Part shown: positions 31,880 to 61,606 of the stretch, piece by piece | Layout of the letters: the number at the start of each line of letters is the position of its first letter | Position numbering within the stretch: position 1 is the first letter of the stretch | Source: Bryum argenteum | Taxonomy: Eukaryota; Streptophyta; Bryopsida; Bryales; Bryaceae | Reading direction: 5' to 3' | DNA length: 64,000 nt | Assembly (NCBI GenBank): GCA_037043015.1 | Contig: CM073325.1 | Location: 4,962,501-5,026,500, forward strand | Program-made: the position numbers and the translations under genes | The notes under the pieces: model-generated | Database searches by the model: none | What the model was told of the DNA's origin: nothing | Seen by the model: only the letters and a program-made list of their open reading frames with translations

Positions 31880-32105
31880 TACCGCCCCTTCCGACGTGCA
31901 CGCGAGATGTCGGAGAGAGAGACGATGAGATCTTTGTTGCTTTTGCATCGTTTCGGGTGACTGATTGCTCCTCGAAAATAGCTACAACAAAGTAACAGAA
32001 CATCATCAGCCATTGCTCTCAAGATCATGAAAGCTCTGAAATCGCGATGGCGATGGTGAATTAGGGTTTGAAAAATTATCTAGGGTTTAGAGATCAGGAT
32101 CAGCG
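31880..32105 (+). promoter_or_regulatory. Promoter/5' leader of the PPPDE gene with telo-box motifs
   Basis: Two AGGGTTT telo-box motifs (32063-32069 and 32082-32088) lie within 45 bases upstream of the ATG at 32106. Such motifs are common near starts of broadly expressed plant genes. No clear TATA box. Confidence 0.5.
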
Positions 32106-33656
32106 ATGGCGGAGGTGACACTGCACGTGTACGATATCACGAACAGCATGAACGTGCGCGCGAATTCCGCAATTCAAGGCTTGAATCGATTTATGCGCGG
32201 CGGGATCGGAATTGGAGGCATCTTCCATGGCGCTGTCGAGGTATCAATCAATTTCCAATCCTATCGAACGAACGAACGAGAGTATCCTGTTATTTGAGAA
32301 TTGGTGTTGATCGCTTTCTGGATTGCGCGCAGGTGTATAATAAGGAATGGTCATTTGGATACTGTGAGGTTGGGAGCGGTGTTTTCCACTGTCAACCGAA
32401 ACGGAACCCTATGTACACGTACAGGGAGAGTATACCATTGGGAAGGACGTCGTTGACGCGCGTGCGGGTGGAAGCAGTTGTGGAAGAGTTGAGTCAAGAT
32501 TGGCTGGGTGAATCGTATGATCTTCTGGCAAGGAACTGTAATCATTTCTGCGATGCCTTTTGTGTCAGGCTTGGCGTCGAGAGAGTACCATGTAAATCCC
32601 CTTTCACTCACCGTATTCGCTCTTTCACGCAGTAAATTGTGGAGTATGCTGAATTTTTATCACTTGTTTTGTGACAGTATGGGTGAATAGATTTGCGAAT
32701 GCCGGTGATGCTGCAATCTTAGCAGTCGGAAACACTATCGATCGGGTAAATGGCTGCCCTATAGTACTCCCTTTGTTGATGTCAATTTATCCGATTCAGC
32801 GAAAGAAATTTGACAAAGGTCTCGATACTACTCATTGAACGTACCTGAAAAATTTATGTAGTGCTGCTCAGGAACATAGCCTGCCTCTGATCGCTGTATA
32901 TACATCTTCTCTACTATATTGCTCAATATGTAGTCGAAATGGAAAGTGTGGAATTTCACTTCAACAGATATGTTCAGATCTGTTCTCTTATGCACACCCT
33001 GAGTCCATTGGAGATTTTAGTCGGCTTCCTGTATAGATCTGATTCAGTGAAATAAATTGGACAGAAGGGCTTGGTTTCACTTATCCAACATAGCTGAAAA
33101 GAATTATATAGTGTTGCTCAGTATGATCGCGTATGATACATTGACTTCACTAATCTGCTCATGGGAGTCGTGAGTGTTCAACGTAGTTCCAACTTCCACA
33201 ACATTGTATGAAATTTACCTTCTGTTTTTCGTAACCGATTATGTTTGAAGTTAAGCATTTCGTTTGTTAGCCGTGTGTCTGGAGAATGCTATGTATGATC
33301 ACTAGAGAGTTTTAACTCGAATACGAGTGTGAAAAGGAATAAGGACACCTTCGCTTGTTTCTTTTTCTCTTCCTAAGGATGAGCTCTTTTCATTGTGGCA
33401 GTTGATTCAAGCCAAAGATGACGTGGTGTTAGCAAGCAGCCGTGCGATGCAGTTCATGTTTGGATCTTCGGCATCTTCATCAGCTCCTCCGACGCCAGAA
33501 ACTCCTGGTAACACAAGCATAACACATCCGGGAACTCCATTGAAAATTTCATATAATAGTTCGCCGTTATCATCAGTGGAAAGTGGTAGTGTCATATCGG
33601 CTTCTGATGATGATGATGATGTCGTCGAGCATTCATCACCACCACCACCAGCATGA
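32106..33656 (+). CDS. DeSI-like PPPDE peptidase (238 aa, 4 exons)
   Basis: Exons 32106-32240, 32333-32591, 32678-32745 and 33402-33656; the last intron is 656 nt. The phases join to 717 nt. The PPPDE fold is recognised from VTLHVYDITN at the N-terminus, the catalytic His in GGIFHGAVE (about residues 37-45) and the catalytic Cys in LARNCNHFCDAFC. This His-Cys dyad, with the NCNHF signature, defines the DeSI/PPPDE family of cysteine peptidases, which remove SUMO or ubiquitin from substrates. The C-terminal 85 residues (exon 4) are Ser/Pro-rich with an Asp run and a poly-Pro end, probably disordered. An AATAAA signal lies at 33847-33852. The closest plant type is the 'deSI-like' group; which modifier it cleaves cannot be told from sequence. 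Confidence 0.9.
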
Positions 33657-42087: not shown

Positions 42088-42290
42088 GGCATCTCCAACG
42101 GACTTGTTAAAAGACTAGCTAAGTGTAGTCAGAGAAGAGGAGTTCTTAACTGTAGCACCTCTTCAAATCCACACCCTTTTTCAACAAACTTGCCAAAAAA
42201 CCATGTTATAGTTTGTTTTTTTATCACATCACAACAAAAATTCAAAAATACTTGAAGTTCAAATGTACAAACGTTTTAAAGTATTCGAAT
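42088..42290 (+). mobile_element. Left half of a GGGCATCTCCAACGG repeat split by the giant hAT element
   Basis: Starts AAGGGCATCTCCAACGGACT. It runs into the 8-bp ATTCGAAT duplication at 42283-42290. The continuation resumes at 59119 (GATGAAATCTTCCAAGTCAAG), where it matches 17828-17875 (CATAAAATCTTCCAACAGGC). Confidence 0.65.
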
Positions 42291-42464
42291 CAGGGATGTC
42301 AATCCGGACGTCTTTTGGGTTTTTTTGGTCGGACGGACGTCCGTCCGTCCGGGGGGTAAATCGGAATTACTATGCATGTAGTAAATTTTTTAACCGTCAG
42401 ATCGTATTGAAAATCGCATCGTAGCCGTTCAAATAGTGTTGTGAGTGTAGGTGATTACCGTTGG

Positions 42465-42867
42465 ATTGAATCGGGCGGCCCAGAACCGTCCGATTGGCCT
42501 TACCGACCGACCGGTCGACGCCGACGGATCGGTCGCTTGATCGGCCGCCGGCCGTCCGATCGTCGGTCAGGTTGGCCGGCCGTCGGATGGGCCCTTCGGC
42601 GTCGGCCCGACCGACGGTCGGCCGCCGGTCGGCGCCCGGCCGTCCGATCGGCCGCGACCGGCCGGTCGGCGGCGCTGCCGTCCGATCGGTCGGGTCGGCC
42701 GCCGGTGATCGGTCGGGCGGGCGGTCGGCGCCGGCCGTCCGATCGGTCGGTCGGCCGCGGCTGTTCGGTCGCGCCGGTCGGCGCCGACCGTCAGATCGGT
42801 CGGGCCGGTCGGCCATCGGCCGTCCGATTTAGGTCGCCGGTCGGCCATGCGACCGCGGCCTATATAA
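42465..42867 (+). promoter_or_regulatory. GC-rich CGGTCGGCCG block and TATA box of the kinase-like gene
   Basis: About 390 bp of CpG-rich sequence built from CGGTCGG, GGTCGGCCG and CCGTCCGATCGG variants, ending directly at TATATAA (42861-42867). The ATG of the kinase-like gene follows 162 bp later. Open frames in this block are Arg/Pro/Ser/Gly repeats and are artefacts of composition. Confidence 0.7.
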
Positions 42868-43028
42868 GGCCGACCGCCTCCACTCTCCTCACTTCTTTCC
42901 TTCGTTATCGAGTGCGGAGTAGGCGTAGGTTGGAAATTTTTTAATTTTCATCGATCGCTCCTTATCCTGCGGAGGAAAGAAGTCTTTTCGTTTGTAAGGG
43001 GGGAGATTTTGCTTTTTTTTTCACAAAG

Positions 43029-44351
43029 ATGCCCAAACATGGGGCTGGGGGTAGTGGGGGGAATCGAGGCCGGAGACCAAGGGTTCATAGACATTTGGAG
43101 AAGTGGGAGCACTCATCCAATAAGTGCAAGAACTTTCTTCGGGAGAATGTAATCGTGCGATTTTATGAGGCTAACAGTCTTCCACGTTTGTTTAGCAAAT
43201 ACGTGAGATACAAAGAGGAAGCTGTGGCCAAATTCAAGGACGACATGATGGACCTCATGATGGAAGCGCTCCAAGATCCGGTGTGGAGAACGAAGACTGA
43301 TAAGCGTGGTTTTACGGACTGGATGGAGGATAGATTAATTGATGCTGTCGACATATTGAAGAGGTATGAGAGAACCACTCGAGCGGGTGATGAGGAGTTC
43401 AGGGATGTGGTATTGAGGGCGGAGGCTTTTCAAGAAGCGATGAGGCCGTATTCCAATAATGCAAACCGGGTTGGTTCCATAGGATGGTGGCGCACGGAAC
43501 AAGGAAGGTTAATGGAGCTGGTTCGTACGAATAATTTGGTAGTAATTCCTATGACGGCCCGTATCATCGAGCTTGAGAAGAGGACTCTAAGGGGAGGATA
43601 CGGCACAATTTCCAAAGTTCACATAAGAGGGGTTGTGGGTATTGAAGAGTTTTGGGAATTTGCTGCAAAGACTCCCATCCATGCTGTGACACGACCAGAC
43701 TTGGCCAAGGTGGAGCATCAGAATGAGGCGTTTGCTGTGAAGATACAACATCCAGGTGTTATTCGTTTTATAGCCATTCATGCAAATAAATTCCAAGGCT
43801 ATACGTATTGGTGGAATGGCGGCACGATTCGATCGATGTTGGCCCTTGATGCAAGATATGGAGATGATGTTCATGGAGAGATCGGACTCTCACCTCATTC
43901 TGATGATGAGCTTATTCGAGCTTGGCAGTTGGTCCGGTTTCGCAAAAAACGAACAGAGCTTGCTTGGGCTTTAGTGCATATCATGTGTGAAGTCCACCGG
44001 TTGAACTACCTCCACAACGATGTGTCTCCAGACAACATACTTCTTCACTTCCCTCAAGATGAATCACGGGTGTATATTGGAGTATGTGATTGGGGGCTAA
44101 GTACGAGCATGGATGATAAAATGAGGTCCTTGTATACGTTCACAAAACCCCAAGAGCGAATTGATACTCTACAAGCACGATATTGGGTAGATCCTCGGGT
44201 GGCGTACTTGTACAAACGGAGTGATGACATTCACATTATTCCCCTTCTTGATTGCGCTTCGGAGGAGTTTGCTACGGCACGAATAGCACAACGCATCCTC
44301 AAGAAGAGCATGTCGAAGGCCTACGAAATTGCCAAAGTACAACGGGGCTGA
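43029..44351 (+). CDS. Protein kinase-like protein encoded by the giant hAT element (440 aa frame)
   Basis: Intronless frame. Residues 1-180 are basic, then helical, with no domain I recognise. A kinase-like C-terminal half follows: glycine-rich loop RGGYGTISKV (about 188-197), AFAVKIQHP with a candidate ATP-binding Lys238, catalytic loop HNDVSPDN (329-336; Asp331, Asn336), and CDWG (353-356) in place of DFG. All key polar residues of an active kinase are thus present, in divergent form. After the stop the next frame continues as plausible protein (DRWCNQDLANAFDQYLEMV, ending HYRTKYD) to a TAG at 44503-44505. This implies a one-base frameshift near 44330 and an ancestral C-terminus about 50 residues longer. 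The gene lies next to the left terminus, facing inward, with its own GC block and TATA box. Substrate and role are unknown. Confidence 0.75.
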   Translation: MPKHGAGGSGGNRGRRPRVHRHLEKWEHSSNKCKNFLRENVIVRFYEANSLPRLFSKYVRYKEEAVAKFKDDMMDLMMEALQDPVWRTKTDKRGFTDWMEDRLIDAVDILKRYERTTRAGDEEFRDVVLRAEAFQEAMRPYSNNANRVGSIGWWRTEQGRLMELVRTNNLVVIPMTARIIELEKRTLRGGYGTISKVHIRGVVGIEEFWEFAAKTPIHAVTRPDLAKVEHQNEAFAVKIQHPGVIRFIAIHANKFQGYTYWWNGGTIRSMLALDARYGDDVHGEIGLSPHSDDELIRAWQLVRFRKKRTELAWALVHIMCEVHRLNYLHNDVSPDNILLHFPQDESRVYIGVCDWGLSTSMDDKMRSLYTFTKPQERIDTLQARYWVDPRVAYLYKRSDDIHIIPLLDCASEEFATARIAQRILKKSMSKAYEIAKVQRG

Positions 44352-44505
44352 CCGGTGGTGCAATCAAGACTTGGCAAATGCTTTTGACCAATACTTGGAG
44401 ATGGTGGCTGATGCAAAGTATACGTTGACCCACGTTGTCAACCGCTTCATGGAATCATTCCATTGGCCGGTGCCAAATGATCATTATCGCACCAAGTATG
44501 ATTAG

Positions 44506-45223
44506 CAAATTAGTTATGCGCATTTCTTTTAGTTCTTGCGGCTTTATTAGATTTTTAGATTCTTCATTGAAGTTCTTGATGTAGATGTAGGCAAATTTTT
44601 TGTAGTAAAATGTATTACATGCCTTCTATATGTATCGGCTTCAAGTACATTCTTGTTTATATATACCTTGCACTGATTCTAATGAATGACTTCTTCTCCA
44701 TTGTTTGTTATTTTATTTTATTACTTCTTACCTTCAATAGAAATATCTCCAAATCTTCATGAACAATATTTGAGAATGTATAATGAATTGTGGAACTTCT
44801 TCATTACATCAACCTTGCGTAGTTGCGATATTAATGGTTTGTCCGAAGTCAGCTCAAGCATAATATGACTTTTCTTACATATGCTTTTTTTTGAATGAAT
44901 TGATGAACATATTATATGTTAGGTGAGAGTGTGAGACTGTGAAAAAAGGCTTAAAGCCAAACAGAAGAAATTATTACCACCAAGTGAACTTATAGTATAA
45001 AATACAAAGACATCGCCATAAAATCCTTGAAATAACAAATTACATAGTATATTAATATACAACGATATAGTCCGATATTGGATAATCCATTCATAAACAA
45101 AATATGGATTTCTGTATCCTCAAAATTGGCCCCTAGCAAGGCGAGAATGGTGTAGTCATTATCCGCTGCCAAAAACTACATAACCTTCACTACAATGACA
45201 CTATGTATGATGATTTGTCATTC
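44506..45223. other. Intergenic space between the convergent kinase and P genes
   Basis: AT-rich, without recognisable coding sequence. It presumably holds both 3' ends. Confidence 0.5.
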
Positions 45224-46529
45224 TTAATCCGATTCTTCATCATCGTGTTTACGACTTGGCGCAGCGTCGTAAGAAGGTGGTCCTCGAGAAGATTCTCCAA
45301 ACAAGTACGTTTGCCTAAAGTTTCTTTCGGCTTCGAGCTGTTCAATGTATTCCTGCTGACTTAGAAGTGTGGCTTGTTGCAGATCTTGTTGGTACCTCGC
45401 CTCTTCGTCCTCCGGAGATAGATAAGGTGCTGAAGGCAGGTCGTTACTTCCGTATGCATTCTGACCATATCCATAATTTGTGTAGCCAACAATGTCTGAT
45501 CTTCTATCATATTGACCTCCATACTCGTATGTTTCCTTCGGGTGTGATGGCCTACGGTAATCGGGACTTCCGAATGTTGTACCGTATTGGTTCCCACGAT
45601 TGTATGGGTTTATAGGATGAGTTGGGCTTGAGTTGCATTGAGCATTGGATCCGCTACCCTGCTCACCTCCTAAACCATGTGTACCTCCTGTATACATTGG
45701 AGATGGGTAGTTCGAACTAGATCCACCTCTACCGTACTCGCGTTCGGCTCCGTCGTGTTTTTCTTTGATGAGGTGGCATATAACTCACCGAGTCTTGAAT
45801 TGGTGGTTTCCATGGTAATACCCCTCACTTCCGTGCCAAAGGATACCGGGTGCTTGACGATCGTCATGGTTTGAGTCTTCTTGAGTGCCCCCATATGCCC
45901 TTGGAGTTCCATGTTGTTGAAGTTGGGCATCCATATCACCAACGTTCAATACGTAGTATAACAATCGCTTGGTCCCATCCAATTTGTGGGAATGAATCGG
46001 TTCTCGCGATCCAATAAATGCACGTTCAAACCTATCACAAAGGTCCAGTCAATGTCCTTGTACAGACTATTTCACCCACACCATGGCCATGGTAGAATAC
46101 AACATCAATTCGGCCTTGTGTTCTTGATTCCAACTCGCAATTGTGACTTCGTGATATCTCATACGCAAAATGGTCGCTCTTGCAACTCTTCACCGGGCCT
46201 TCACGACGAGGACCATATTTCTCTTCTTCGTGCCGCGGCCATAACTTCATGATGTGGTACATCTTCACGTACTTCTTGCACATGGTGCAATTCCAAATGT
46301 CCGCCGCCCGCCTCTCGCCAACCCGGCTCGCAACACGCTTTGGGTCACTCCATGCTTCCCAATCCATTTTTGGAGGGTCGCCCTTTGGCCGTGGAAACTT
46401 GGCCTCACCCCTCGAACTCGAAAACTTGGCGCCATTTCCAAAGCGACAAGTATGCCACGGTGTGGCGTGGGTGACCCACGCGGACTCCGAGTAACGCAAT
46501 CGATGCGGCTTTAAAAAGCCGCAACGCAC
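45224..46529 (-). pseudogene. P: Gln/Tyr/Gly-rich protein of the giant element, frame-disrupted
   Basis: The first frame (46529-46035, 164 codons) contains CTMCKKYVKMYHIMKLWPR. A shift near 46030-46050 moves into a frame reading LCDRFERAFIGSREPIHSHK and then KRLLYYVLNVGDMDAQLQQH. An in-frame TGA after HQFKTR (near 45785) is followed, in the same frame, by YGRGGSSSNYPSPMYTGG and a Tyr/Gly/Gln-rich C-terminus with a coiled-coil-like stretch (QQATLLSQQEYIEQLEAERN), ending ...KHDDEESD at 45224. The coding signal therefore continues through at least one frameshift and one stop, so the copy is broken. The CKKYVKMYH...KLWPR module recurs in the RING gene (52.35 kb), making the two N-termini paralogous. 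A TATA-like CATAAATA (46571-46578) sits just upstream. I recognise no database family. Confidence 0.6.
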
Positions 46530-46570
46530 AACTGTTCACTGCAGTGAGGGACAATGAGCCCCTCCCCTTC

Positions 46571-46935
46571 TATTTATGCCGACCGGGATCGGACGCCATT
46601 GGCTACCGGCATTGGCCATCCGATCCCGCCGGCACCACAATCGGCGATCCGCGATCCGCGCGGCAACCGGCCGTACGACCGATCGGGTCGCGACGTCCGA
46701 TCGGTCGATCGGGGGCCGTCGATGGCGCGCCGCCGACGGCTGATCGGGGCGCTGATCCCGGCCGACCGATCCGGCCGATCGGGCGACCGGTCGATCAACC
46801 GGCCTGGCGACCGACATCCGGCCACCCGACCGGGCCGGCGACCGGCGACCGGGCCGGAGACCGACGACCGGGCCGGCGACCGACGACCGGGCCGGCGACC
46901 GACCCGTCCCCCGGCGACCGGCTTGGTCGCTCCTT
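46571..46935 (-). promoter_or_regulatory. GC-rich block and TATA box of gene P
   Basis: Reading leftward, a CGGTCGG/CCGGCGACCGG block of about 350 bp ends at a TATA-like CATAAATA (46571-46578). This is the same layout as before the kinase gene, on the other strand. The outer part is built of GACCGGGCCGGCGACC-type units. Confidence 0.65.
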
Positions 46936-47662
46936 CCGCGTCTCCCCTTCCCCTCCTCCTCTTGCCTCACCCCAAAACTCCCCGTTTGCACAACTTCGAA
47001 CACTTCCTCGCCTTGCATACCTGCATTTTCAGAAGTTCTATATTTAGCCTCTTTGGTCCACGTGGCGTCTAAATAAGGACAGGGAATGTTCTGACAAGGG
47101 AATGTCGGGAATGTCTTTTCGTCATAAACGGGAATGTTTTATGACAAAGATACTATCGGCTTTAAATAAAGCTATAATAAGGGACTCTTTGCAAGAGGAG
47201 GGAAGGCCAACAAATCTCCAAGCCAATTCACGCACTTTTTGAGTTATGTTGCCCAATTAGCTTTAATTGAACAATACATTTAACAACCAATTTAGTGGGG
47301 CCAATTTTCCGAGTCGTGAAGTCCTTTGGAGTTGAAGCCCATGTCTAGAAGGAGAGCCAAGGCCATGGGGCCAATTCTTATTATTAACTAAAGTCCATGT
47401 TTTTTTTTGGTACACATTTATTTTTTATTTTTGTTTTTTGGAATTATTCTTCCCTAACACCTTAACAATCATGGCCACCATTTCGTCTTTTATCATCACG
47501 GCCAAAAAATGTTTCATATTCAATTTCAAATGTAATGATCTCGCATCTAGTGATGATCCAACGGTTGAAGATTTCACACTACTACATATGGTACTTTACT
47601 CAAGATCCTATGGTTGAAATTATAAAGTATATCCAAAAATATTGGACATAGCCCCTTTGTAG

Positions 47663-47940
47663 TGAAACCACCTATTCTCGTACACTTAAGGAATATTGAG
47701 GGAATCTATATACTTGGTGTGAGAAAGGAGTGGGTTACTATTTTTCTCGGATAGGAAATAGAAAAAGACAAGCTAACCCTATTTATGTGCTTTTTTAAAG
47801 CACACACATAAAGAAATACAAATTTTATAAGGAGAAGCCTAAAGGCGGGCACCCTAAATATATACGCATAATGTAAATGCAAGGGAGGTGAGATCTTTAT
47901 AAAGTCAAGAATCTTTGCCTCGCGCCTTTAGGTGGTTTCA
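47663..47940. mobile_element. Nested 278-bp element with TGAAACCACCTA ends
   Basis: TGAAACCACCTA at the left and TAGGTGGTTTCA at the right are exact inverted copies. The element splits a diverged TTAA-end element: 'aaaaatattggacatagcccc' is on its left and 'catagtggtgagtgctaatattgcaagctc' on its right, which are contiguous in the copy at 51.3 kb. I could not fix the target duplication. Confidence 0.5.
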
Positions 47941-48895
47941 TCATAGTTCATAGTGGTGAGTGCTAATATTGCAAGCTCCGTCCCCCGATTCACATTCATT
48001 TCTTCTATCTCCCAACTTTTGTCAAAATTTATCCATTCTCACTAGGAGATTTTGCCATGTCTTGGCCCCCATTCATGACTTGCCCCGTACTGTGTACCCT
48101 GAGGTGGCCCTAAATCCCCTCTAATTACATTCCAAAAATTTTACCTAGTCCTTGGTGAGAATATATTGATGTCTCACATTGGAGAGATCCAAGTATATAT
48201 GAAATGTAGGTGATCATGTGTGAGCATTTACTTTTCATAACTTTGGTCTTACTGAGTTTGTCAATATTTAGACTTTCTATTTGGGCCTTAACATTTCCAC
48301 ATTGTATGGTCTATATTAATTGATGGGTATTTGGAAATTACTCCGTCGTTGTGTATTCTAATTAGTAATACTTATTATAAAAAAATATGGTGCATAAACA
48401 ATTAATTCTATTATTCGCTATTTTTTGTTTGACAACCTTCAACTAACCTAGGAGAATATATATAATCTAGTACATATGATTAATTGTAGCATTATTCTTA
48501 TTGTATGGATTTGAATAGTTACTTATTTCCCTCTTACCAAGGTAATTGAAATAAGTTTTCATTGTTACTATTTTTGCAATCATAAAATAAGAGAAATAAA
48601 TAGGGAGACAAATAAATTTTAAAAAATATCCCACCCTCTAAGTGTTTTACATATGGCAATAATGGCATCAACTTCTAAATTTTTAAGCATATTTGATATT
48701 GTACAAGTATAGTACATTAGTACTAGGATTAGATGTTATATCAAATTGATTATTCGTATACTATGATTGATTGATTTGGGAATAGAATATTTTGAAGAGC
48801 CATCACTTCTTCATTTACTGTATGTAATGGATACATTCTCTTGTGGATAAACTTTAAGTTCTTGGTTAAAGATGTATGAATTACTATGTAGGCCT

Positions 48896-48949
48896 CTAGG
48901 GTATAGGGTTTAGGGTATAGGGTTTAGGGTTTAGGGTTTAGGGTTTATG
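48896..48949. repeat. Interstitial telomere-like repeat (TTTAGGG/TATAGGG)
   Basis: About seven units of (T/A)T(T/A)AGGG-type sequence in a row, including four adjacent TTTAGGG. The run is short and embedded in the giant element, so it is not a chromosome end. Confidence 0.8.
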
Positions 48950-49685
48950 GTCTTGAGGATTTGGGGTGGATTTCATTTTATTCCTAGTTTTTGTGTTGCA
49001 AAGCTTTGCAAACACAATTGTGTGTGGATGTAAAATAATGGATTACTGTATGTATGGTGTAGTTCTCAATTATATTTTACATGGATACAAGTTGCACTTC
49101 TCTACATCGCATAGTTAATGTGTGCAAAATAATCTATTTTGTATTTATCATTTTTGATTGAAGATGTTATTGACATGGAATAAATCACAAATTTATTGCA
49201 AAGAATATATAGGTACTATATTAAACATCATCATACGAATTATGATTCCCGAGTCTTCAATCTCATAGCCTATTTTAAACCAATATTGGAATAGAGTTAC
49301 TATTGTAGGTCATGTGGCTCAGAGTTTAATTCATAGAGCCTCATAGATCATAACGTATGAGTACTGAAGTAGTGTTTGTACGAAACATCTTTGAATTCGT
49401 GAAGATCTATACTTTTATGGAGTTCACTCGAAATGGTTATGAACTTAAAATTTAAAGTTCAAATGTATCCGTGAAAAAAGAATACTTAGCATTTCAGAAA
49501 TCAACATAGGATTCCTTTTTCATTGTGTAGTAATTACTGAAAATCGAGTAACAGAAATCTTTGAGAAATAAAAAAAGGATCCTATGCAATTTTATCTTAT
49601 TTTAGTTATATATTTAAGGAATGTTTTTAAAAAAAAATAAAAAAAAAAAAAAAAAATAAAAATAAAAACTGTACTTTGGCCCCCA

Positions 49686-51595
49686 TTTCGGTTGGCCGCC
49701 ATCGGGCGGGCGTGCGACCGGCCCGGCGACCGGCGACCGTCCCGGCGTCCGGCGACTGGCCCGGCGACCGGCCCGACGACCGCCGACCGGCGTGGGGACC
49801 GACCACGTCCCCCGGGCGACCGGTCGGTCGCTCCTTCCGCGTCCCCCCTTCCCCCTCCTCCTCTTGCCTCTCCCCAAACTCCCCGTTTGCACAACTTCGA
49901 TCACTTCCTCGCCTTGCATACCTGCATTTTCAAAAGTACTATATTTAGTCTTTATGCTCCACGTGGCGTCTAAATATGGACAGGGAATTTTCTGACAAGA
50001 GAATGTCGGGAATATCTCTTTGTCCCACGCGAGAATGTTTTATGACAAAGATACTCTTGGCTTTAAATATATCCATAGTAATGGACTTTCTTCAAGGGGA
50101 GTTAAGGCGAGCAAATCTCCACGCCAATACACTCACTTTTTGAGTTGTTGTGCCCAATTGGCTCGAATCGAAGTAAACATTTAACAATCAATATAGTGTG
50201 GTCAATTTTCTCATTTGTGAAGGCATTGAGAGTTCATGCCCTTGTTTATAAGGAAAGCAAAGGCAATGGGGCCAATTCTTATTATAAGTTAAAGACCATG
50301 CTTTTGATTGTACACCTTAATTTATTACTGTTAAAATATTCCTTCTTAACCCCTAAAGATCCATGGACACCAAAGTGGAGGTTTCCTATTTCGGGCAAAA
50401 TTTATATGAAGAGGTCAAAAGTAATAATTTTTTATTAAATTTTTTCTAGGTGGTCCTTACACCGCAAAGTGCATGTGGTAAAATTTGCATATCCACATTC
50501 CAAATTTACAACCTACATCTATAATATTTACGTTTGAAGTCCACTAAGGGCGCTTAAATTTAGTCTTTGTTTGAAATTCTTTTTGGAAATATGTTCATGA
50601 ACAATTTACTACTTGATTCCAAAGTGACCCAAGTCAAAATGTATGTCTATTTCACAAGGGTACCGTTGAGAGATTACAAAAATAATCTTCACAATTTCTA
50701 GTAATTTCCGATATAAGTCATATAACTCTTTCTTCGATTGATTGTTTTGAAAATATAAAATTTTAAATAGGCATCTCTTCTTCATTTAGAGTATCTAGTG
50801 GATAAAATCACTCGTGGATAGGATTTGTGGTTTATGGTTTAGGATGTATGAATAACTCTTTAGGATGAGTTCCAAAATAAGTGTCCTACATTAAGATTAG
50901 GATACTCCAATTGACATTCTCAACCATGCAATATTGGAATAGAGTTACTGTTGTAGGTCATGTGGTTCAAAGTTTGATTCATGAAGCCAATGGTCAATTA
51001 AATTACAAAAGGAAAATAGAGAAGAAAGATATTGATTCGAAACCAAATGAATGCCTTATGTTTGAAACATCTATTAATTTGTGAAGATTTACACTTTAAA
51101 GAGTCCACTCAAAATGGTTATGAACTTAAAATTTAGAGTTAACCCCTAAACGACCACGGCCACCGATTCGGCGTTTACAGTGAAGGAAAAAATAATTTAC
51201 AGTCAACTTCAAACGTTATGATCTCACATCTAGTGATGATCCAACGGTTAAAAATATTCACAGTACTACCAATGGTAGTCTACTTCAAGATCCTACGGAT
51301 GAAATTATCAATAATTTCCAAAAATATTGGACGTACCCCCATTAGTACATAGTGGTCTGTGTTGGGATTTCAAGCTCCCGAAACATTGTGGATTTTTAGG
51401 GGTTAAGATGTATCCGTGAGAAATAATATATTGCATTTCAGAAATCAACATAGGATTCCTTTTTTCAGTGTGTAATAATCACTGAGAATCAAATAACAAA
51501 AAACTTTGCAAAATAAAAAAGGATCCTATGCTATGTAAGATCTCTGAATTTTAAATATATATATATATATATAAAATTTTTATTTTAAAAAAAAA
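49686..51595. repeat. Duplicated non-coding unit 2 inside the giant element
   Basis: An orphan GC block (49686-49835, CGGCGACCGG units) with no gene on either side is followed by TTGCACAACTTCGATCACTTCC, CACGTGGCGTCTAAATA, TATTGGAATAGAGTTACT and finally AGGATCCTATGC near 51520. These blocks parallel unit 1 in the same order. It is shorter than unit 1 and has its own TTAA-end insertion (51139-51406). Confidence 0.6.
51139..51406. mobile_element. TTAA-end element, 268 bp, with an empty site in the sister unit
   Basis: TTAACCCCTAAACGACC at the left and GGATTTTTAGGGGTTAA at the right. The sister unit reads straight through at 49456-49470 (AAAGTTCAAATGTATCC), where this unit has AGAG, the element, then GATGTATCC. 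This is a filled/empty pair showing insertion into a TTAA-like site. Confidence 0.8.
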
Positions 51596-51619
51596 TTGAA
51601 AAAAAATTTAAAAAAAAAA

Positions 51620-51905
51620 CCGCAGCGGCCGCCCACATCGGTCGGCCGCGTTGGTCGACCGGCATGGGTCGGCCGGCATGGGTCGGCCGGCATCGAGCGG
51701 CCACGATCGGCCGGCCACATCGGTCGGCAGCAACCGGCCGGCCCGAACGACCGGCCACGATCGGCCGGCCCCAATCGGTCGACCGGATCGACCGGCCACG
51801 ATCAGTCGGCCGGACCGGCCGGCCAGCATCGGTCGCGGCCGTGATTGGCCGAGCGACTGGTCCGGCCGGCCGGTCTCTAGGGTTGGGACGGAGGGGGGAT
51901 AAAAG
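51620..51905 (+). promoter_or_regulatory. GC-rich block and TATA-like box of the RING gene
   Basis: About 270 bp of CGGTCGGCCGGCATGGGTCG- and GGCCACGATCGGCCGG-type units, then GATAAAAG (51898-51905). The ATG at 52100 follows about 200 bp later; an in-frame ATG at 51938 is also possible. Confidence 0.65.
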
Positions 51906-52099
51906 GCCTTTGGGGCCTCATTTCCCCTCACTTCTCCTTGTATTCATCCATCTCAACTGAGCTGCAACCGTGGGCATTAGCTTCTCGTGTGCTGCATTTG
52001 TGGTGGCGGGGGGAAGTCAGCGTAATACTTGCGGCTGCTGCATCGAATTTTTGCATACTTGGGATATTTTCGGGGTATTTTAAATACTCCTTACTCTTC

Positions 52100-55000
52100 A
52101 TGGCGACGGATATTGATAACACGAACATGGAGGCTAGTTCTGAACAGACCTTGAGGTCACCTGCGACAGAAACCACAAACGCAGGATTGGTGGGGACTGA
52201 GTTGGTTTTACATGAGACACCGTCAAAGAGAGTGAAACCAAAAGGAGCGAGACATGAGTTGCACTACGATATCTTGGATAATGAGGCCATCAAAGCTGAG
52301 AGCGGTTGGGCCAATGAACCGGAGGAATACTGGAGAATGGCGACGTGCAAGAAATATGTGAAGATGTATCACATTGGGAAACTTTGGCCTCGAGAATGTC
52401 ACAAAGTTAATACCAATAATTTTACTTGCAACCCTCAAACATGCAAGGATGATCACTTCCTTCATCGTGCTGAAGAAGTTTGGGTGGCATTGTTTGGAAC
52501 TCGTCCCAAGAGTAAGGGTTATTTTTCCTATACGCTCTTGAGCATGGTGTATGCTGAGCTCATATTGAAGCGCAAGGTGAACTGGAGCACATTCACGGCG
52601 AGTAGTGCATATCCTCTTTGAATCGGGAGAAATCAAAAGGATATCCCTGATAGGTTTGATCCAGAATCAAACTCTACAAAGGCCTTATTGCAGTACTTGA
52701 GGAGGAAAACTCATGAGACGGCGGAGAAGGAATCTCCTCCAACAACCACGACACATCAGGAGGATGGAAGGAATATGGTTCCTACGGATGCCCCAATCGT
52801 AGAACCAACTATAACTGATAGGCTCGAAGGTGCAAAAGTAGTTGAAGAACCTCATGTAACCCCGGTACCAACATCAAAGGAGGCAGGGCCAAGTGTAACG
52901 CCGGTACCAACATCAGAGGAGGCAGGGCCAAGTGAACCACGAGAAACCAGATCACCTACAGATGCCGTAGATGTCATTCATACGGAAAGTAGTATGGTGG
53001 AAAATTTCGTGGACTATCTGCATACGGTACCGAGCAATAAGAGATTGGTGGAGTGGTTGAAAACCGCAGAAATGATGGCTGATTGGTGCAATAAGGTAGA
53101 TAAAGACGAAGATTTGCCAGGGGATGTTAGGCATAAAGCCTCAGGCGGTTCAATAGTTGCTGTAGGCGTCAACTTCAAAGAGGTGTCAGAAAGACTTGCT
53201 ACTATATCTCCCAGTTTAGTATCAATGAGTCACCCTTTGGCAACAATGTTGCCTGGCATTATACAAGTCATGGTGAATTATGAGGCAATCATAGATCGAT
53301 TCCACCCTCTACTTGAATGAGCGAGCGAAGAATGAGCTAATCATTGAGAAATGAAAAACAACACCAAATTACGCAACGTCTCCTTGACGAGTTTTACAAG
53401 GAATTGCGGTTGTTTGGCCAAGGTCCTGCTAGCGAGTATGTGACAAAGTACGAAGAAGCAATGCGCCAAAGGCAGGCGGTAGAAGACTTAGAAGATAACC
53501 GATATAAGTATTTAAACTTCTTTCCAACACAGGATGACACTCAGGGGGCTTCATGTAGTTATGTTTATCCAGAATGTGATGCGGGTGGTAAAGACGATGG
53601 TAAAGAGGATGGTGAAAAGGATGGTAATAAAGATAAGGGGAAGACCATTATCGGGACTTCTGATAGTCTTTTTCTTTCACAAATTGATGGGGGTGGTAAA
53701 GAGGATGGTGAAGAAGAGAAGAGAAAGACGTATACCAGGGATTTATCTCCTCTCAAAGAGGTTGGTGAAGAGGATGGTAAAGAAGATAAGTAAAAAACCA
53801 TTATCGAACTAGACGATGATGACGATGATGAACTTCCTGAGGAATTGAAGTTAAGATCACAAAAGGAGGTAGATGATGGGCCATTGAGCGACAACGAGCA
53901 TGGGCGATGAAGTTCGCGGCAGTGAAGAAGGAGAGAGATGTTACAGTTGCGAAATTGGAGGAGGAAGCAAAAGCATGCTCAATGAAGTTGGAGGCTACAA
54001 GTAAAGAGAGAGATGAGGCGATCATTGAATTGGAGGCATTACGGAAAACCTTCAAAACGGTAGATTCTACAGAGGCAATCCACCTTCACCTACGCATACT
54101 ACCATGGTTGGGATGGGTTCATCGACTTCAAGATAAGAGGAGCTTGGTTTCGAGAGCAAAAGAAGATCTGAAATCGATTGCATCTACATCAAAGGAATCA
54201 CGTGAAGTTGTAGATGCTTCATTGGAGAAGTTCGTCAAGAACGGATCGAAAAAACGATATGACCCCATAGAGGTCACTTTTTGGGGGGATATTGAAGATA
54301 TGATGGAGCGTACAAACTACTCTAAGATGGGACGAAACAATGATGTTGATTGGACTATGGAGATAGAGGAAGGATGGGCGCCGTATAGTAGATTCTCATC
54401 GCACCTCCAAGAGTCAGCTCGCATAGTAATCAACACATGCGACCCTCCTCCCGCAATACTTAAAGACAAATGTGCGGTGTGCCTACATAATTTTGGTCCG
54501 GAGGGCGCATACACGTTAGGCCAATGTAGCCATAACTCTCATGTTACTTGCATATGCCGATATGCGATGACAAAATCGGTATGTCCAGTATGTCGCTCCC
54601 CATTTAGCACGAGATTCTACGAGATGATGGGCATTCGAGATCTTATGCCACCAGGGCACGAGTTCAACCGATGGAATCTTCCATTGGATCAATACCCGAA
54701 GAAATTTCTAAACTACTCGATTGGGGAAATGCTCTTCACCGGTACATCCGAATCAAAACACCAACTAGCCATTCAATTTGGTGGGGATCATGATCAGTTA
54801 TTTTGGATGACACGAGATTACGAAATAGAGATCAGGGCGAGGAATATTGAAGGTGATGAGCAACGAGAGTTGTTTTGTCGTAATTTCGGAGGGCATTGGA
54901 GCGTCGAACACAACCGTTTCTTTCGATTTCTTCCAAAGAAAGTGGAAAAGGAGAAGATGGTTCGTGTACGAAATAACCGATTCAACAAGGCTTTGGTGAA

Positions 55001-55487
55001 GAGTACAAGAAGTACGATCATACTCCAATTGGAAGAGCTCTCCGTACTCGAAATTGGAGGAGGCGCAATATACCGGATTTCGATACCGGAAAATTCTTTT
55101 GAAGATGTGGAGGTCTCTTATTGGGATGCGGTGAAGAAGTTTGATACGCGTATCGATGACGCCATTACATTTTGGAGAGAATGTCTTTTAAACCCAAAAA
55201 ACACACAACTTCTATTATTGGATGAGTTTGAAGGTGTTGTACAGGATGTCATTGCAAAGATCGAGAAGGCCATGGAAATCTTACGTAACAAACAAGTAGA
55301 TCCGAGCAAAAAGCGGAAGAGGCAATCGGGCGACGATGGGGAGGATAGTTGGCAGGCAGGTATGAGAGGCGAAATCGCAGCGGTGGATCGAGAGTATGAA
55401 GAGGGCGGTCGAATTGCCCGTCCAAGTCAAAGACCGCGTACTCGCAGTGTAGCTCAGATTGGCCAATCGGATGGATCTTCAGTTTGA
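52100..55487 (+). pseudogene. R: long coiled-coil RING-H2 protein of the giant element, frame-disrupted
   Basis: Coding signal runs for about 3.4 kb. Frame 1 (52100 or 51938 to 52619) includes ATCKKYVKMYHIGKLWPRE and a CKDDHF motif. A TGA at 52619-52621 interrupts it and the same frame resumes to 53320. A shift near 53330 leads to a Glu/Lys/Gly/Asp-rich part (53344-53793), then a TAA. Another shift near 53900 opens a 526-codon frame with a coiled coil (VKKERDVTVAKLEEEAKA) and a RING-H2 finger at about 54471-54602 (CAVC, GQCSHNSHVTC, CPVC: C-x2-C...C-x-H-x2-H-x2-C...C-x2-C). Its C-terminus carries a basic KKRKRQ signal. RING-H2 domains usually make a protein an E3 ubiquitin ligase. At least two stops and two shifts mark this copy as inactive, unless unrecognised introns exist. 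The function of the rest is unknown. Confidence 0.65.
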
Positions 55488-55519
55488 AGTTAGAATGGAT
55501 GTTGGACCTTAAGTTCCAC

Positions 55520-55587
55520 ATATATAACTATATATAACTATATATAACTATATATAACTATATATAACTATATATATATATATATAT
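55520..55587. repeat. Tandem repeat of CTATATATAA, about 5 copies, then (TA)n
   Basis: The 10-bp unit repeats just after the stop of the RING gene, in the gap between the convergent RING and transposase genes. It is TATA-like in composition but has no gene downstream in either direction. Confidence 0.85.
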
Positions 55588-55589
55588 GC

Positions 55590-56418
55590 TTTTTTTAGAT
55601 TGTATGGTTGTTGTTTTAAAAATGATGCAAATGCCACCATTGATCCATGGGGCCTTATTTTTGAAGTAAAGGGTTACAATCTTTTTTGATTTAATGTGCA
55701 TTTCTTTTGTATGCTTGAGAGTGAAGACTATCGTACGACAAGTATGTAAAAATATATGTAATATTTTTCAAAACATTAAATGTAGTCATGTAGACAATAG
55801 AATCTCCAAATGCATTTGGAGTATAACAATAAAGTACTACAGTAAACTATAACTACAAGTTCTATAATAAGTATAAGTCCTATGAACCTATACTACATAA
55901 AGATGCCAAATTCAACTACTCATCAGGACCAGAGGATTGCTCATAATCGCTATCTCCCTTCACTTCACTCCACCACTAGATCCCGTAGGATCATATTCAT
56001 AATCGCTTGGAACCTCCTCTTTGATCTTGGGTTTATTCTCTGGACATTGTATATTCCCATACTTATGCCAAGTATCAAATTCGGGAGATTAACAGGGGAT
56101 CTTCGGTTTTTTAGGCGGAACAATTGGAACCGTTGCGATTTCCGTTTATGCGACTTGGAAGTGCCAAGCATGTCTTTGTAACCCCGTGGCGAGACGAAGA
56201 ACATTGGCATTCTTTAAATACCTGCCCAACGGTACATCAGAGTCACTAGAGATGCTCCCATATTTGGCTCTTGAAAGGGATACTAAACCCTTAGACGATT
56301 TCTCCAAGGTTGTCGTAACCCTTGTAGTAGAGGGTTGAAATAAAGCGCGGGGAGTAGCACATTGATTAGATACCGATCCTTACTACCGGATGCAATATTC
56401 TCCGCGACCGGATCGAGC
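55590..56418. other. Space between the convergent RING and transposase genes
   Basis: The right part (about 56230-56418) could still belong to the transposase 3' region. I looked for the hAT C-terminal dimerisation motif on the minus strand and did not find it. Confidence 0.4.
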
Positions 56419-58550
56419 TCACATGCCCTTGATTGTGTTGCACGCAGGTCTCTTCGCATCTATCGCCTCCTTTTCCAACCGTAAACCAATAGCGATAACA
56501 GGTAGGACGTTATTTGATTTGTCCATGCCGCCTTGTGTCATTAACCGGGCTAACGGCTGCTCATCATCTAGATCATCCGCTGAAAGACCATGAGCGATAA
56601 AATCACCATTACCATCATGAACATTTGGAGCATCTTCATCATTTGAAGCGGGGAAGAAAGTCATATCATCATCTTCATCGCCAAATTCAAAAACATCATT
56701 GTCATCAGACTCTGATTCGTCCTCGACAGCTTCCTCATCATTCTCATGTACTTGGTCTTCCTCTAAATCCAAGTTCTCTCTATACCACCGCCCATCATCA
56801 CTCAACTTATCATTCTCCGCGGGACATAATTTTTGTAAAACACGCTTGCAAGCGATTGTAAGATCGGGATCGTCAGCTAACTCTTGGTCGTGTAGTAAAT
56901 AAGGATTTAAAAGTGCAGCCGCGCCATGTAAATCCGTTGTCATGAGCCGTTTCCGATGGTAAAACTCCTCTTTTGCGGTGGCCACCTCAAGTGGTTCCAA
57001 TGAGATGGGCGGTGCGTGCAAAGTATGGACATGTCTCTCAAGATCACGCATGATATGCCATGCCTTGCCCGTACTAGGAGCCTTGCCGTCGAATTCTCTC
57101 AGAGCGTACACCACGGGGGCAACCATATCCCGTAGTCTTTTGCATTGCTTCCAAAACTCATCGCTCAACACCACCTTCTTGACCTTACGTGAGAATATAA
57201 GCTTATCTCTAGCGATACCGTCTTCTTCGAGGCATAGATCGTGAAACATAGGGTCGACAACAACTTGCTCCAATGATTCCTTGACCTCCAACAAGCAATC
57301 TATCATTATGAATTGACTAGCAAATCTTGTTTTCCCGGGCATCGATGGTGAATTTCGCCCTCGTGTTTACGAAACACAAACTAGGGGCATTTGTCGCCTC
57401 TTGATAAACTTGACCATTTTCTTCGCCATGACCAAAGTATTCGCCATCCATCCAGCCTTTCCTCAATCCTCCAACAACAAGTCCATTGCATGTGTCGCAC
57501 ACCCTTGCATGAAAATGTGCGGATATTTCTCAAGGACTATTCTTGAGGCATTGAGCATTACAGAAGCATTGTCTGTGCATACTTGAACAATCTTCTCTGG
57601 TCCAACTTCTTCTATGTACTTCAACATGAGAGTTGACATGTACACCGCTGTTTTTTCTTGGCCAGTAGTATCGACAGCACCAAGAAAAAGTTCTCCGGCT
57701 TGAGTCACGAGCATCGCATTCACCAAAGGGCGACTAGTCACAAATGACCATCCATCCATAGTCAAAGTTCCTCCAAACTTCCGAAGGCTCTCAGAGAGTC
57801 TACTATCTAGTTTCTTTTGTAACTCCGTCTTTACTTCTCCTAACAACCTTGTCCGAATGTCATGGTAGGATGGTGGAGCATAGGATTTTCGAAATCCCGC
57901 AGTCTTCATCACGGCAGCTTTGAACGCATCATTGCGGGCTACTGAGAATGGTATATTTGCTTCGTAAAAAAATTTCGCCCAGAGTTTATCCAACTCCCGC
58001 CATCCGCTTCTGCAAAAGTAGCTTCAATTGAAGATTGCTTCGTTTGCTTCATAGATCCAAACATCGGGAGAGTATCCCTTATTCCCCTCATATGCATGGA
58101 GGAAGCAGAGGTTGACCCTACCAAAAGATTTGTTGAATTCATGGGGGTGCCTAGCGAGGACCCTACACAAGAGTCACTCCTAGGGGTTTCAGGAATGTCA
58201 TGTTTTGAAGCACCTGGAACGTCCGTGGATGGAGTGAGAGAACATTCACCGAGAAATAGTTCCAATTCTCCGTTATATGGAGGGAACTCCCCACCACATC
58301 TTAAAAATAACTGCCTAATTTCCCTAGGCAGCTTTGGGCAAAGGGCAGAACTCGAATCCCTATGTCCAGGAATCTTCTCGTACCCATAATGACTCAAATT
58401 CCGACTCTTCTTCTTCGAAACAATTACAAGACATAGTGAGCACTGTAGGAAGGACCCAGACGCTTTGCCTTCCTTCTCGATGTCTCTAAACCAAGGCTCA
58501 TGTGGAGCAGGGCCCATTTGATAAATAGGACGCCTCAAAGTCTTAAACAA
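56419..58550 (-). pseudogene. T: hAT (DUF659-type) transposase, broken
   Basis: Exon-like frame 58550-57939 begins MFKTLRRPIYQMGPAPHEPW and has a BED-like zinc-finger region (FLQCSLCLVIVSKKKSRNL, later SSALCPKLPREI). Near 58005 the frame shifts to one reading RELDKLWAKFFYEANIPF. Then come the DUF659 core LTMDGWSFVTSRPLVNAMLV, VQVCTDNASVMLNASRIV, and GCATHAMDLLLED. An in-frame TGA (57463-57465) follows, then GKAGWMANTLVMAKKMVKF, an in-frame TAA (57367-57369), then PGKTRFASQFIMIDCLLE and LHGAAALLNPYLL, as in plant hAT relatives. The end is acidic; the usual C-terminal dimerisation segment is not visible. With one shift and two stops in an otherwise continuous frame, the enzyme is inactive here. 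It lies beside the right terminus, facing inward, with TATATAAG at 58717-58724. Confidence 0.8.
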
Positions 58551-58716
58551 TGGTGGGACCGTGACGGGGAAAAAAATGGCAAGAGTTCCTTACGGAAATC
58601 CTCACTTCCGAACTCAATACCTACCAAGCAATGTACACATAAAATGAATTATGTGGCTCATAGCTCTTGGAAAGTGTTCAAAATTCGGAAGTGAAATGAG
58701 ACTCAATGTGTCTTCT

Positions 58717-59030
58717 CTTATATACCATCCAACTCCGAATATGACCGTTGCAATTTGAAGTTGAAATGCTCCTAAACCGTTGGATGCTCAAAAGGGCCAT
58801 CTGGCCGTTGGCGGTCGCAGGATGCGAGGGCCGGTCGCAGTGGCCGACGGCCGGTCGCCCGGGCCGACGGCCGGACCCAAGGCCGGTCACCCGCGGCCGA
58901 CGCCCGGTCGCCCTAGCCAGCCGACCGGTCGGTCGGGCCGACGGAGAGGTCGGGGACCGGCCGACGGAGAGGTCGGGGACCGGTCGAAGGGGTGGTTCGA
59001 CCAATGAACGCACCCCGTTGGTCATTTACC
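58717..59030 (-). promoter_or_regulatory. TATA box and GC-rich block of the transposase gene
   Basis: On the minus strand a block of GGCCGACGG/CGGTCGG units (58795-59030) precedes TATATAAG (58717-58724), about 170 bp before the presumed ATG at 58550. This repeats the layout of the other three genes. Confidence 0.65.
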
Positions 59031-59110
59031 CTTGGTAAAACGACCAGATTTTCTAAGTCACGGACGGTCCCCGGACCCCTGCCGGACGTCCGGACGCTGT
59101 GACATCCCTG

Positions 59111-59230
59111 ATTCGAATAGGTGGGATGAAATCTTCCAAGTCAAGTTACCTTGAAGTAAATGACGCATCTGTGGGGAGCATTTTCTAGCCGGCCTCCCAA
59201 AAGTGGCCTCTTTAATTGTAGCGATTCTTG
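59111..59230 (+). mobile_element. Right half of the host repeat split by the giant hAT element
   Basis: After the ATTCGAAT duplication the sequence GATGAAATCTTCCAAGTC / AAGTTACCTTGAAGTAAATGAC matches 17830-17875, where the flanking parts are contiguous. Confidence 0.65.
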
Positions 59231-60866: not shown

Positions 60867-61606
60867 ATGGCGGCTATTGGGAGGAGCTATGTAACGCCGG
60901 TGTTGACCGGCATCAACTTCGCTCTGGCCCTGGCGGGTGCTGCTCTTGCAGGATGGGCCCTCAACCGCGGCTTCGACAGTCCAGGCTCTGTCGGTAAGGC
61001 TAGCCACACACTGTAACCATCCCATGAATGAATGAAAATACTTGAGCGTTATCTTGATCACGTACATGGGGGCATGCAATCCATGCAGGTAATGTGGTGA
61101 CGTCGGTGTTTCTACCACTGGCGCTCATAGCGTGCTGCGTTACCATGGCGGCCAAGCTTGCAGGAGGCTTCCATTTGCGATTGTGGCGAACTGATAGCCT
61201 CGCGGCTGCGGCTGCCACGGCGCTCATCGCCTTCCTGCTCACTCTTCTCGCCTTGGGGTACCATCACTTCTACCTTTCCATGTGGATTCTCATGCTTATA
61301 TATCGTGAGCAAGGGACTGATCATGGCCATGGTATTTGCAGGGTTGCGATCAAGGAGATCAAGGTTGGAGGCAACCGTCCGAAGCAGCTGGTAATCACTG
61401 GACAAGTCTTTCTGTTTGATATTCCTGGCTTGTGAATCGATCATGCATGAAAAGGCTAAGCTAAGCTGTTGGGATGTGTGATTTTTCAGAAAGCATTGGA
61501 AGCTATAATCATCATCTTGGGTTTCTTCGAGCTTCTGTACATCTTGTCTTTGCACGCTGGTACCGATGCTGCCGACGAGAAATATGGGACAAACCAGGTT
61601 GTGTAA
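60867..61606 (+). CDS. AWPM-19-like (PM19) membrane protein (153 aa, 4 exons)
   Basis: Exons 60867-60993, 61089-61257, 61342-61390 and 61490-61606 join to 462 nt. The protein has four hydrophobic helices: about residues 9-29, 42-62 (VVTSVFLPLALIACCVTMAA), 77-98 (LAAAAATALIAFLLTLLALG) and 119-138 (LEAIIIILGFFELLYILSLH). Family signatures are seen: GWALNRGFD after helix 1, KLAGG-x-HLRLWRTDSLAAA between helices 2 and 3, VGGNRPKQLKALEA before helix 4, and the ending LSLHAG. AWPM-19/PM19 proteins are plasma-membrane proteins linked to ABA, cold and dehydration responses, with reported ABA-transport activity for some members. Length is normal. An AATAAA signal is at 61725-61730. Whether it moves ABA cannot be judged here. 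Confidence 0.9.

Follow-up and report, generated by a model that had tools for sequence, protein, structure and literature searches.

hAT elements are textbook one-gene transposons, and typical members such as Ac, Tam3, Tol2 and Hermes carry one gene in a few kilobases. Accessory genes are known in other plant DNA transposons, the VANDAL and Kaonashi Mutator-like elements (MULEs), which combine a Mutator-like transposase with products such as the anti-silencing protein VanC or an ULP-like protease. Lanisha DNA transposons of mosses are reported to be abundant on the UV sex chromosomes of Ceratodon, and the Starships of fungi use a tyrosine recombinase rather than a DDE transposase. In this study, we report a 16,820-bp hAT element with four genes, found in a window of 64,000 nucleotides from the moss Bryum argenteum (positions 4962501-5026500 of contig C5; the genome comprises 258.8 Mb in 25 contigs), and show that it belongs to a large family whose unit of about 17 kb, with genes for a transposase, a kinase-like protein, a RING-H2 protein and a related protein, P, moves as one block. 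The three accessory genes probably serve the element and are probably not passengers maintained for the sake of the host.

Like the typical hATs, the moss element has an 8-bp target site duplication (TSD), short terminal inverted repeats (TIRs) and a transposase of the DUF659/Dimer_Tnp_hAT type with the residues D, D and E; unlike them, it holds four genes in about 17 kb and gave no end pair shorter than 16 kb among 46. With the VANDAL and Kaonashi MULEs it shares the state of a plant DNA transposon with accessory genes, but the transposase, the TSD length and the accessory proteins are different; with the Starships it shares a giant, multi-gene build, but its transposase is of the DDE type. 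The nearest large multi-gene hAT-like element found in print is ToxhAT of fungal wheat pathogens, for which the excerpted text of its report gives a length of 14.3 kb, 74-bp TIRs, eight genes, a hAT-like transposase and no TSD (PMC6737239). ToxhAT differs from the moss element in being fungal and TSD-less, and the same excerpts name no kinase or RING gene (PMC6737239). According to the consulted part of another report, rust fungi hold TET-bearing hAT7 elements with 7-bp TSDs and a TET/JBP dioxygenase, as well as TET-bearing IS3EU families, of another superfamily, in which an alpha-kinase gene lies opposite the transposase; both are, like the moss element, DNA transposons with accessory enzyme genes, and the word 'ring' is absent from the main text of that report (PMC12730594). 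The same part likens Lanisha to EnSpm and places it in a group with TSDs of 2-5 bp (PMC12730594). The family described here, though also a moss DNA transposon, is a hAT with 8-bp TSDs, and membership of Lanisha or the CMC type was rejected on the 8-bp TSD and the hAT domains, found in place of a 2-5 bp TSD and an EnSpm-like transposase. In the main text of a review of giant transposons, 'hAT' and 'kinase' were unmatched (PMC6431247), and no element of this build was found in a search of the open-access literature, a scope outside which lie subscription papers, preprints and Repbase.

Termini, target site duplications and empty sites

Read directly from the sequence, a single insertion spans positions 42291-59110 of the window. 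It starts with the 11-bp left TIR CAGGGATGTCA (42291-42301, plus strand) and ends, at 59110, with the inverted copy of that repeat, TGACATCCCTG (59100-59110, minus strand), and the 8-bp TSD ATTCGAAT stands on both sides (42283-42290 and 59111-59118); the boundaries given in a preliminary description of this DNA were thus exact. Since ATTCGAAT is its own reverse complement, it is by itself weaker evidence than a non-palindromic TSD, and the other copies are what decides the question.

Counted genome-wide at up to two mismatches, the left terminal 22-mer occurs 189 times and the right terminal 26-mer 208 times, the latter count including a sister terminal family; the reversed-pattern control gave 0 for each. 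End pairing was performed with the first 100 of the 189 left and the first 100 of the 208 right ends, all of them exact matches. A correctly oriented right end was faced within 60 kb by 46 of the 100 left ends, and four had any other arrangement. The two ends lie 16-19 kb apart in 31 of the 46 pairs and 20-52 kb apart in 15 (maximum 51.7 kb), one right end serving two left ends. No pair shorter than 16.0 kb was present among the 46 drawn from these 100 exact left and 100 exact right ends. This absence of short pairs among the listed ends, with 89 left and 108 right ends unpaired, suggests that the family may move as whole units alone.

The best 40 of 314 left-end and the best 40 of 335 right-end candidates were scored, and 16 pairs were assembled from them. 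The 8-bp duplication is identical on both sides in 14 of these 16 copies and agrees at 7/8 and 6/8 positions in the other two. Each of the 14 copies has a different duplicated sequence, which fits separate insertions.

Empty sites were sought for two copies lying in repeats of the same genome. The flanks of the copy at C1:20642413 (16.9 kb), put together at one TSD, matched all 40 scored places (the best 40 among 320 candidates); the matches cover 199-200 of the 200 bases with 93-96% identity and no net length difference. For the copy at C1:871759-902515, which is 30.8 kb long and has an exact 8-bp TSD, 21 of the 40 scored rows agree with the joined flanks along most of the 200 bases (85-98%), one match breaking off at base 187. 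Relative to the joined flanks, many of these empty sites have 3-4 extra bases; the remaining rows were the two halves of the filled site and 17 weaker partial matches. Because the joined flanks match continuous members of repeat families, both blocks were inserted whole.

A second whole copy, on C7, aligns colinearly with that of the window in three long segments that are 92-93% identical. The 8-bp TSD, the short 11-bp TIRs, the DUF659/Dimer_Tnp_hAT transposase and the empty sites place the family in the hAT superfamily.

Gene order and open reading frames in other copies

Gene searches scored the best 96 of 1098 kinase, 126 of 932 transposase, 81 of 982 RING and 150 of 1079 P candidates. Used for comparison were 94 of 101 kinase rows (of the seven left out, three were second pieces and four came from two split copies), 108 transposase rows, nearly all of them first pieces (219 matches, listed in part), 81 of 84 RING rows and all 150 P rows. 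Around the 94 kinase matches, P was found on the expected side and strand in 67, the transposase in 42 and RING in 35, and on the wrong strand in none, one and none, respectively. The full set of P, RING and transposase, with conserved order and orientation, accompanies at least 23 of the 94. Together with the TSDs, the end pairing and the two empty sites, this recurring order bears out the proposal of a giant multi-gene hAT lineage whose cargo travels with it. Neither of the two outcomes that the preliminary description had named as refuting it was seen: the gene set is present between such termini in other copies, and the two ends are those of a single element.

Copies with open frames encode, each in a single frame, a 496-amino-acid kinase, a 405-amino-acid P protein, a RING-H2 protein of 1,113 amino acids (copy L087) and a transposase of 967 amino acids (copy L091), the start codons having been picked by us from the open frames.

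Selection on the four genes

Alignments took in 14 of 15 kinase loci, several of them partial, 11 of 11 P, nine of nine RING and 14 of 14 transposase loci, and 30 of 30 right ends. The pairwise ratio of nonsynonymous to synonymous substitution rates (dN/dS) was 0.48 for the kinase (14 copies), 0.46 for P (11), 0.70 for RING (9) and 0.37 for the transposase (14), and 0.61-0.94 in shifted frames. Since copies are expected to decay freely after insertion, variants common to two or more copies are more telling, and for these the ratio of nonsynonymous to synonymous variants (N/S) relative to expectation was taken with a two-sided p value, which is a guide only because related copies are not independent. 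Shared-variant N/S was 0.37 for the transposase (p 3e-9), 0.48 for its N-terminal part in the 30 right ends (p 3e-5), 0.30 for the RING C-terminus (p 5e-5), 0.48 for the kinase (p 0.022), 0.55 for P (p 0.036) and 0.91 for the whole RING gene. In the controls, single-copy in-frame variants gave 0.65-0.98 overall and 0.65-0.84 in the kinase, P, RING C-terminus and transposase sets, and shared variants in shifted frames gave 0.85-2.16. These ratios show a purifying signal on the kinase, P and the RING C-terminus, as strong on the last as on the transposase and weaker on the other two, and they support the view that selection has maintained the extra genes along with the transposase.

The encoded proteins and their relatives

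The transposase gene (55919-58517, minus strand) lies immediately inward of the right terminus in the window copy, in agreement with the preliminary description, which had it just inside one end, and Pfam recognises DUF659 within 57466-58023 on the minus strand (E 6e-32). The window copy is without about residues 570-668, a stretch that includes the hAT dimerisation region, and the frames of all four of its genes are broken; for these reasons it is unable to make full-length transposase, and by its reading frames it is a dead element. In copy L091, Pfam matched DUF659 (3.5e-35) and Dimer_Tnp_hAT (1.2e-10). D255, D316 and E632, which we take to be the catalytic set of a hAT transposase, are invariant in 20 sequences. 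Sequence matches in PDB were of the Hermes type alone (four distinct sequences) and weak (best E 0.05). One relative is 91% identical over its length, and a Ceratodon relative tagged M758_UG198100 is 36% identical over about half.

The kinase-like gene (43029-44502, plus strand) changes frame near 44341 in the window copy, where the Pfam kinase match is weak (1.4e-4 in 43029-44348); the score lies below the curated cut-off in the window copy and in the open-frame copy alike. G193, K218, E237, D335, N340 and D358, presumably the P-loop Gly, the Lys, the alpha-C Glu, the HxD Asp, the Asn and the D of DFG, are invariant in an alignment of 47 sequences, and the DFG motif reads DWG. The structure model has a predicted local distance difference test (pLDDT) score of 89, and its PDB matches are protein kinases (best E 3e-8, template-modelling score by target 0.63, root-mean-square deviation 9.2). 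The protein thus keeps the residues expected of an active protein kinase, and activity is predicted. The best relative, at 57%, is from Ceratodon purpureus (tag M758_3G001500, among 120 relatives listed). A second Ceratodon relative (42%, KC19_VG055000) represents 126 member sequences, all on a single contig of 110.5 Mb, which by its tag is the V chromosome. Organisms named among the 120 are C. purpureus, in two rows, and, in one row (P0016), a Bacilli bacterium metagenome-assembled genome that we take as contamination. A viral origin of the kinase was considered and set aside, since pattern-based scans of viral and genome contigs gave no relative; a distant one could still have escaped them.

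The P gene (45227-46435, minus strand), whose frame is broken in the window copy, encodes an N-terminal domain in common with the RING protein and a Gly/Tyr/Ser-rich tail. The RING-H2 gene (52100-55484, plus strand) encodes a P-like N-terminus, a hypervariable middle and a conserved RING-H2 C-terminal part, and its frames are also broken in the window copy. Residues 42-183 of the RING protein match P with 34% identity over 142 amino acids (E 3e-21); two proteins of the element thus have an N-terminal domain in common, for which no Pfam model scored at or above cut-off. RING_2 was matched with 3e-7 in the plus-strand frame 53877-55484 of the window copy and with 4.5e-9 in open-frame copies. The ligands C774, C777, C792, H794, H797, C800, C811 and C814 are invariant in an alignment of 10 sequences, seven of them from other sources; in an additional copy, L086, C777 is lost. 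The zinc ligands have the C3H2C3 pattern of a RING-H2 E3 ligase, and ligase activity is predicted. Domains and relatedness agree with the earlier naming of a kinase-like, a RING-H2 and a related P gene, with the qualification that none of them is intact in the window copy. Among copies, the middle part of the RING protein is strongly divergent and both flanking parts are alike; within this one genome the hypervariable part covers residues of about 250-600. It could determine specificity, or it could be a cassette that recombines.

Seven RING relatives, at 37-57% identity, were found. In other samples the longest contigs were of equal size for RING P0125 and transposase P0146 (17,649 bp), kinase P0031 and transposase P0147 (27,639 bp), and kinase P0094 and transposase P0160 (15,563 bp). 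The equal sizes suggest that RING or kinase relatives lie together with transposase relatives there, on the same contigs.

Repeat blocks, middle region and neighbouring genes

GC-rich blocks of CGACCGG/CGGTCGG-type repeats lie upstream of each of the four genes, and five blocks, including one duplicate, together hold 31 occurrences of the word CCGGTCG, versus two in the other 62.4 kb. Enrichment was assessed with a set of four words against 300 dinucleotide shuffles. The subterminal block 5' of the kinase gene (42450-42840) has 22 motif matches against a shuffle mean of 2.5, and the block 5' of the P gene (46560-46920) has 10 against 2.6, numbers reached in none of the 300 shuffles in either case; the block 5' of the RING gene (51620-51900) has four against 0.9 (5/300), and the subterminal block 5' of the transposase gene (58810-58990) three against 0.5 (8/300). 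These blocks, which stand close to either terminus and also precede the internal genes, with similar ones behind the end of a sister family, are candidates for subterminal transposase-binding repeats. The sister end, L095 (C6:7681326), was read for 401 bases and is 79% alike over 95 bases, followed by GACCGG-type repeats with little else alike. The sister terminal family carries the right-end 26-mer (best 40 of 280 candidates scored, eight of the 40 on C1), and 24 of the 100 listed right ends match it, none of which is within the 46 pairs (compared by eye).

The middle region (46970-51520), from which the P and RING genes point away on either side, has no long gene frame assigned and contains partly duplicated stretches. 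Beyond the start of the P gene, 46971-47270 and 49872-50171 are 85% alike at a distance of 2.9 kb, a duplication also present in the C7 copy. At 48897-48951 there are about eight imperfect units of TAGGGTT, which we take to be the plant-type telomere repeat. Outside the element, an AWPM-19-like exon of a host plant gene (Pfam 1e-18) lies at 61058-61432 on the plus strand, 1.9 kb from the right end, and an exon of a putative PPPDE peptidase, a host-type gene (Pfam 1e-27), at 32084-32632 on the plus strand.

Distribution among chromosomes

C1 (44.1 Mb) makes up 17% of the genome. Among the scored matches, 62 of 94 for the kinase, 67 of 108 for the transposase, 101 of 150 for P and 51 of 81 for RING lie on it, an over-representation of 3.6-4 times. 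By similarity, the C1 copies come lower in the ranking (p 2e-7 for P, and 0.007-0.03 for kinase, transposase and RING), and their positions along C1 did not deviate detectably from an even distribution. Nine of the best 40 left ends and 13 of the best 40 right ends are on C1. We read this as an accumulation of old copies on C1, which is possibly a sex chromosome. Lower rank and even spread would fit the persistence of old copies on a chromosome that purges poorly.

Discussion

The family consists of giant four-gene hAT transposons of about 17 kb, and we consider it probable that their accessory genes serve the element. In the mechanism that we propose, the transposase would cut and paste the whole unit, and the shared N-terminal domain would recruit P and the RING protein to the element, through either the CGACCGG blocks or the transposase. 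The RING protein may then have E3 ligase activity and the kinase may be active; their targets would be silencing or repair factors of the host, or the transposase itself, with the outcome that the element would escape silencing or transpose efficiently. That the cargo helps the element, as was supposed in the preliminary description, agrees with the purifying selection on the kinase, P and the RING C-terminus and with the apparent linkage in other samples; the part of that supposition which concerns phosphorylation and ubiquitination keeps the standing of a prediction. A wider version is only tentative: a four-gene hAT lineage would extend across mosses with its own kinase and RING signalling module, only the intact unit would move, the host would be manipulated in a virus-like manner, and the kinase family would also be amplified on a moss sex chromosome.

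Several observations weigh against a role of the accessory genes in the life of the element. The biochemical roles of their products are predicted, and we infer them; the structure model of the RING protein is poor (pLDDT 40). The four open frames come from different copies, no copy was seen with all four open, and stops are present in many copies of the transposase, kinase, P and RING genes. Pairwise dN/dS of the whole RING gene (0.70) is barely under the shifted-frame values of 0.74 and 0.94, shared-variant N/S is non-significant for the RING N-terminus (0.65, p 0.29) and gives no purifying signal for the RING middle (1.29, p 0.15), and the signal on the kinase and P is moderately significant, coming from 14 and 11 related copies. 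The linkage in other samples is read from equal contig sizes. The fifth, duplicated repeat block is not enriched (64 of 300 shuffles had as many matches), and the motif excess may partly reflect composition.

In another reading, the hAT element captured ordinary host genes that, like the cargo of Pack-type elements, ride along and do nothing for it. Stops in the cargo genes of many copies speak for this; against it, long frames remain open in several copies, shared variants show purifying selection, and the RING relatives of other samples, at 37-57% identity, conserve their zinc ligands, with relatives apparently linked to related transposases, so that we regard mere passengers as very unlikely. 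A composite in which two or more transposons share a frame by chance, or a hAT with nested insertions, is the least credible of all: it could explain the 15 of 46 end pairs at 20-52 kb and the duplicated stretches in the middle, but not the 31 pairs at 16-19 kb with none shorter, the constant gene order or the colinearity with a copy on another chromosome. The TSDs, the end pairing and the empty sites led us to reject chance ends, and both termini belong to one element.

It is also unlikely, in our judgement, that the kinase and RING set changes the host or works in favour of the chromosome on which it sits, for example a sex chromosome, which would partly explain the spread of the family. The excess of all four genes on C1 speaks for such a drive, as do the 126 member sequences represented by KC19_VG055000 on one Ceratodon contig, V by its tag; the C1 copies, however, are lower-ranking and evenly spread, as old copies on a poorly purging chromosome would be, and only nine of the best 40 left ends lie there. 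We give a similarly small chance to a mechanical need, by which the extra genes would be required by the size of the element or by a cis-only transposase, whole units alone would move, their targets being the transposition complex and not host silencing. The absence of pairs below 16 kb among the 46 and the subterminal-type repeats before internal genes would follow from it. Against this, the pairing used exact-match ends only (100 of 189 and 100 of 208), from which short derivatives with altered ends could escape, and 24 of the 100 right ends match the sister terminal family. A lack of short derivatives is, to our knowledge, unusual for a DNA transposon family.

Conclusions

The lack of short pairs among the 46 raises the question of why the family is not swamped by deletion derivatives. 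If accessory genes that serve the element are the true explanation, transposons of the cut-and-paste kind are able to build up an elaborate set of accessory genes that selection maintains. Mosses, being haploid and readily transformed, would offer a tractable system for the dialogue of such transposons with host signalling and silencing.

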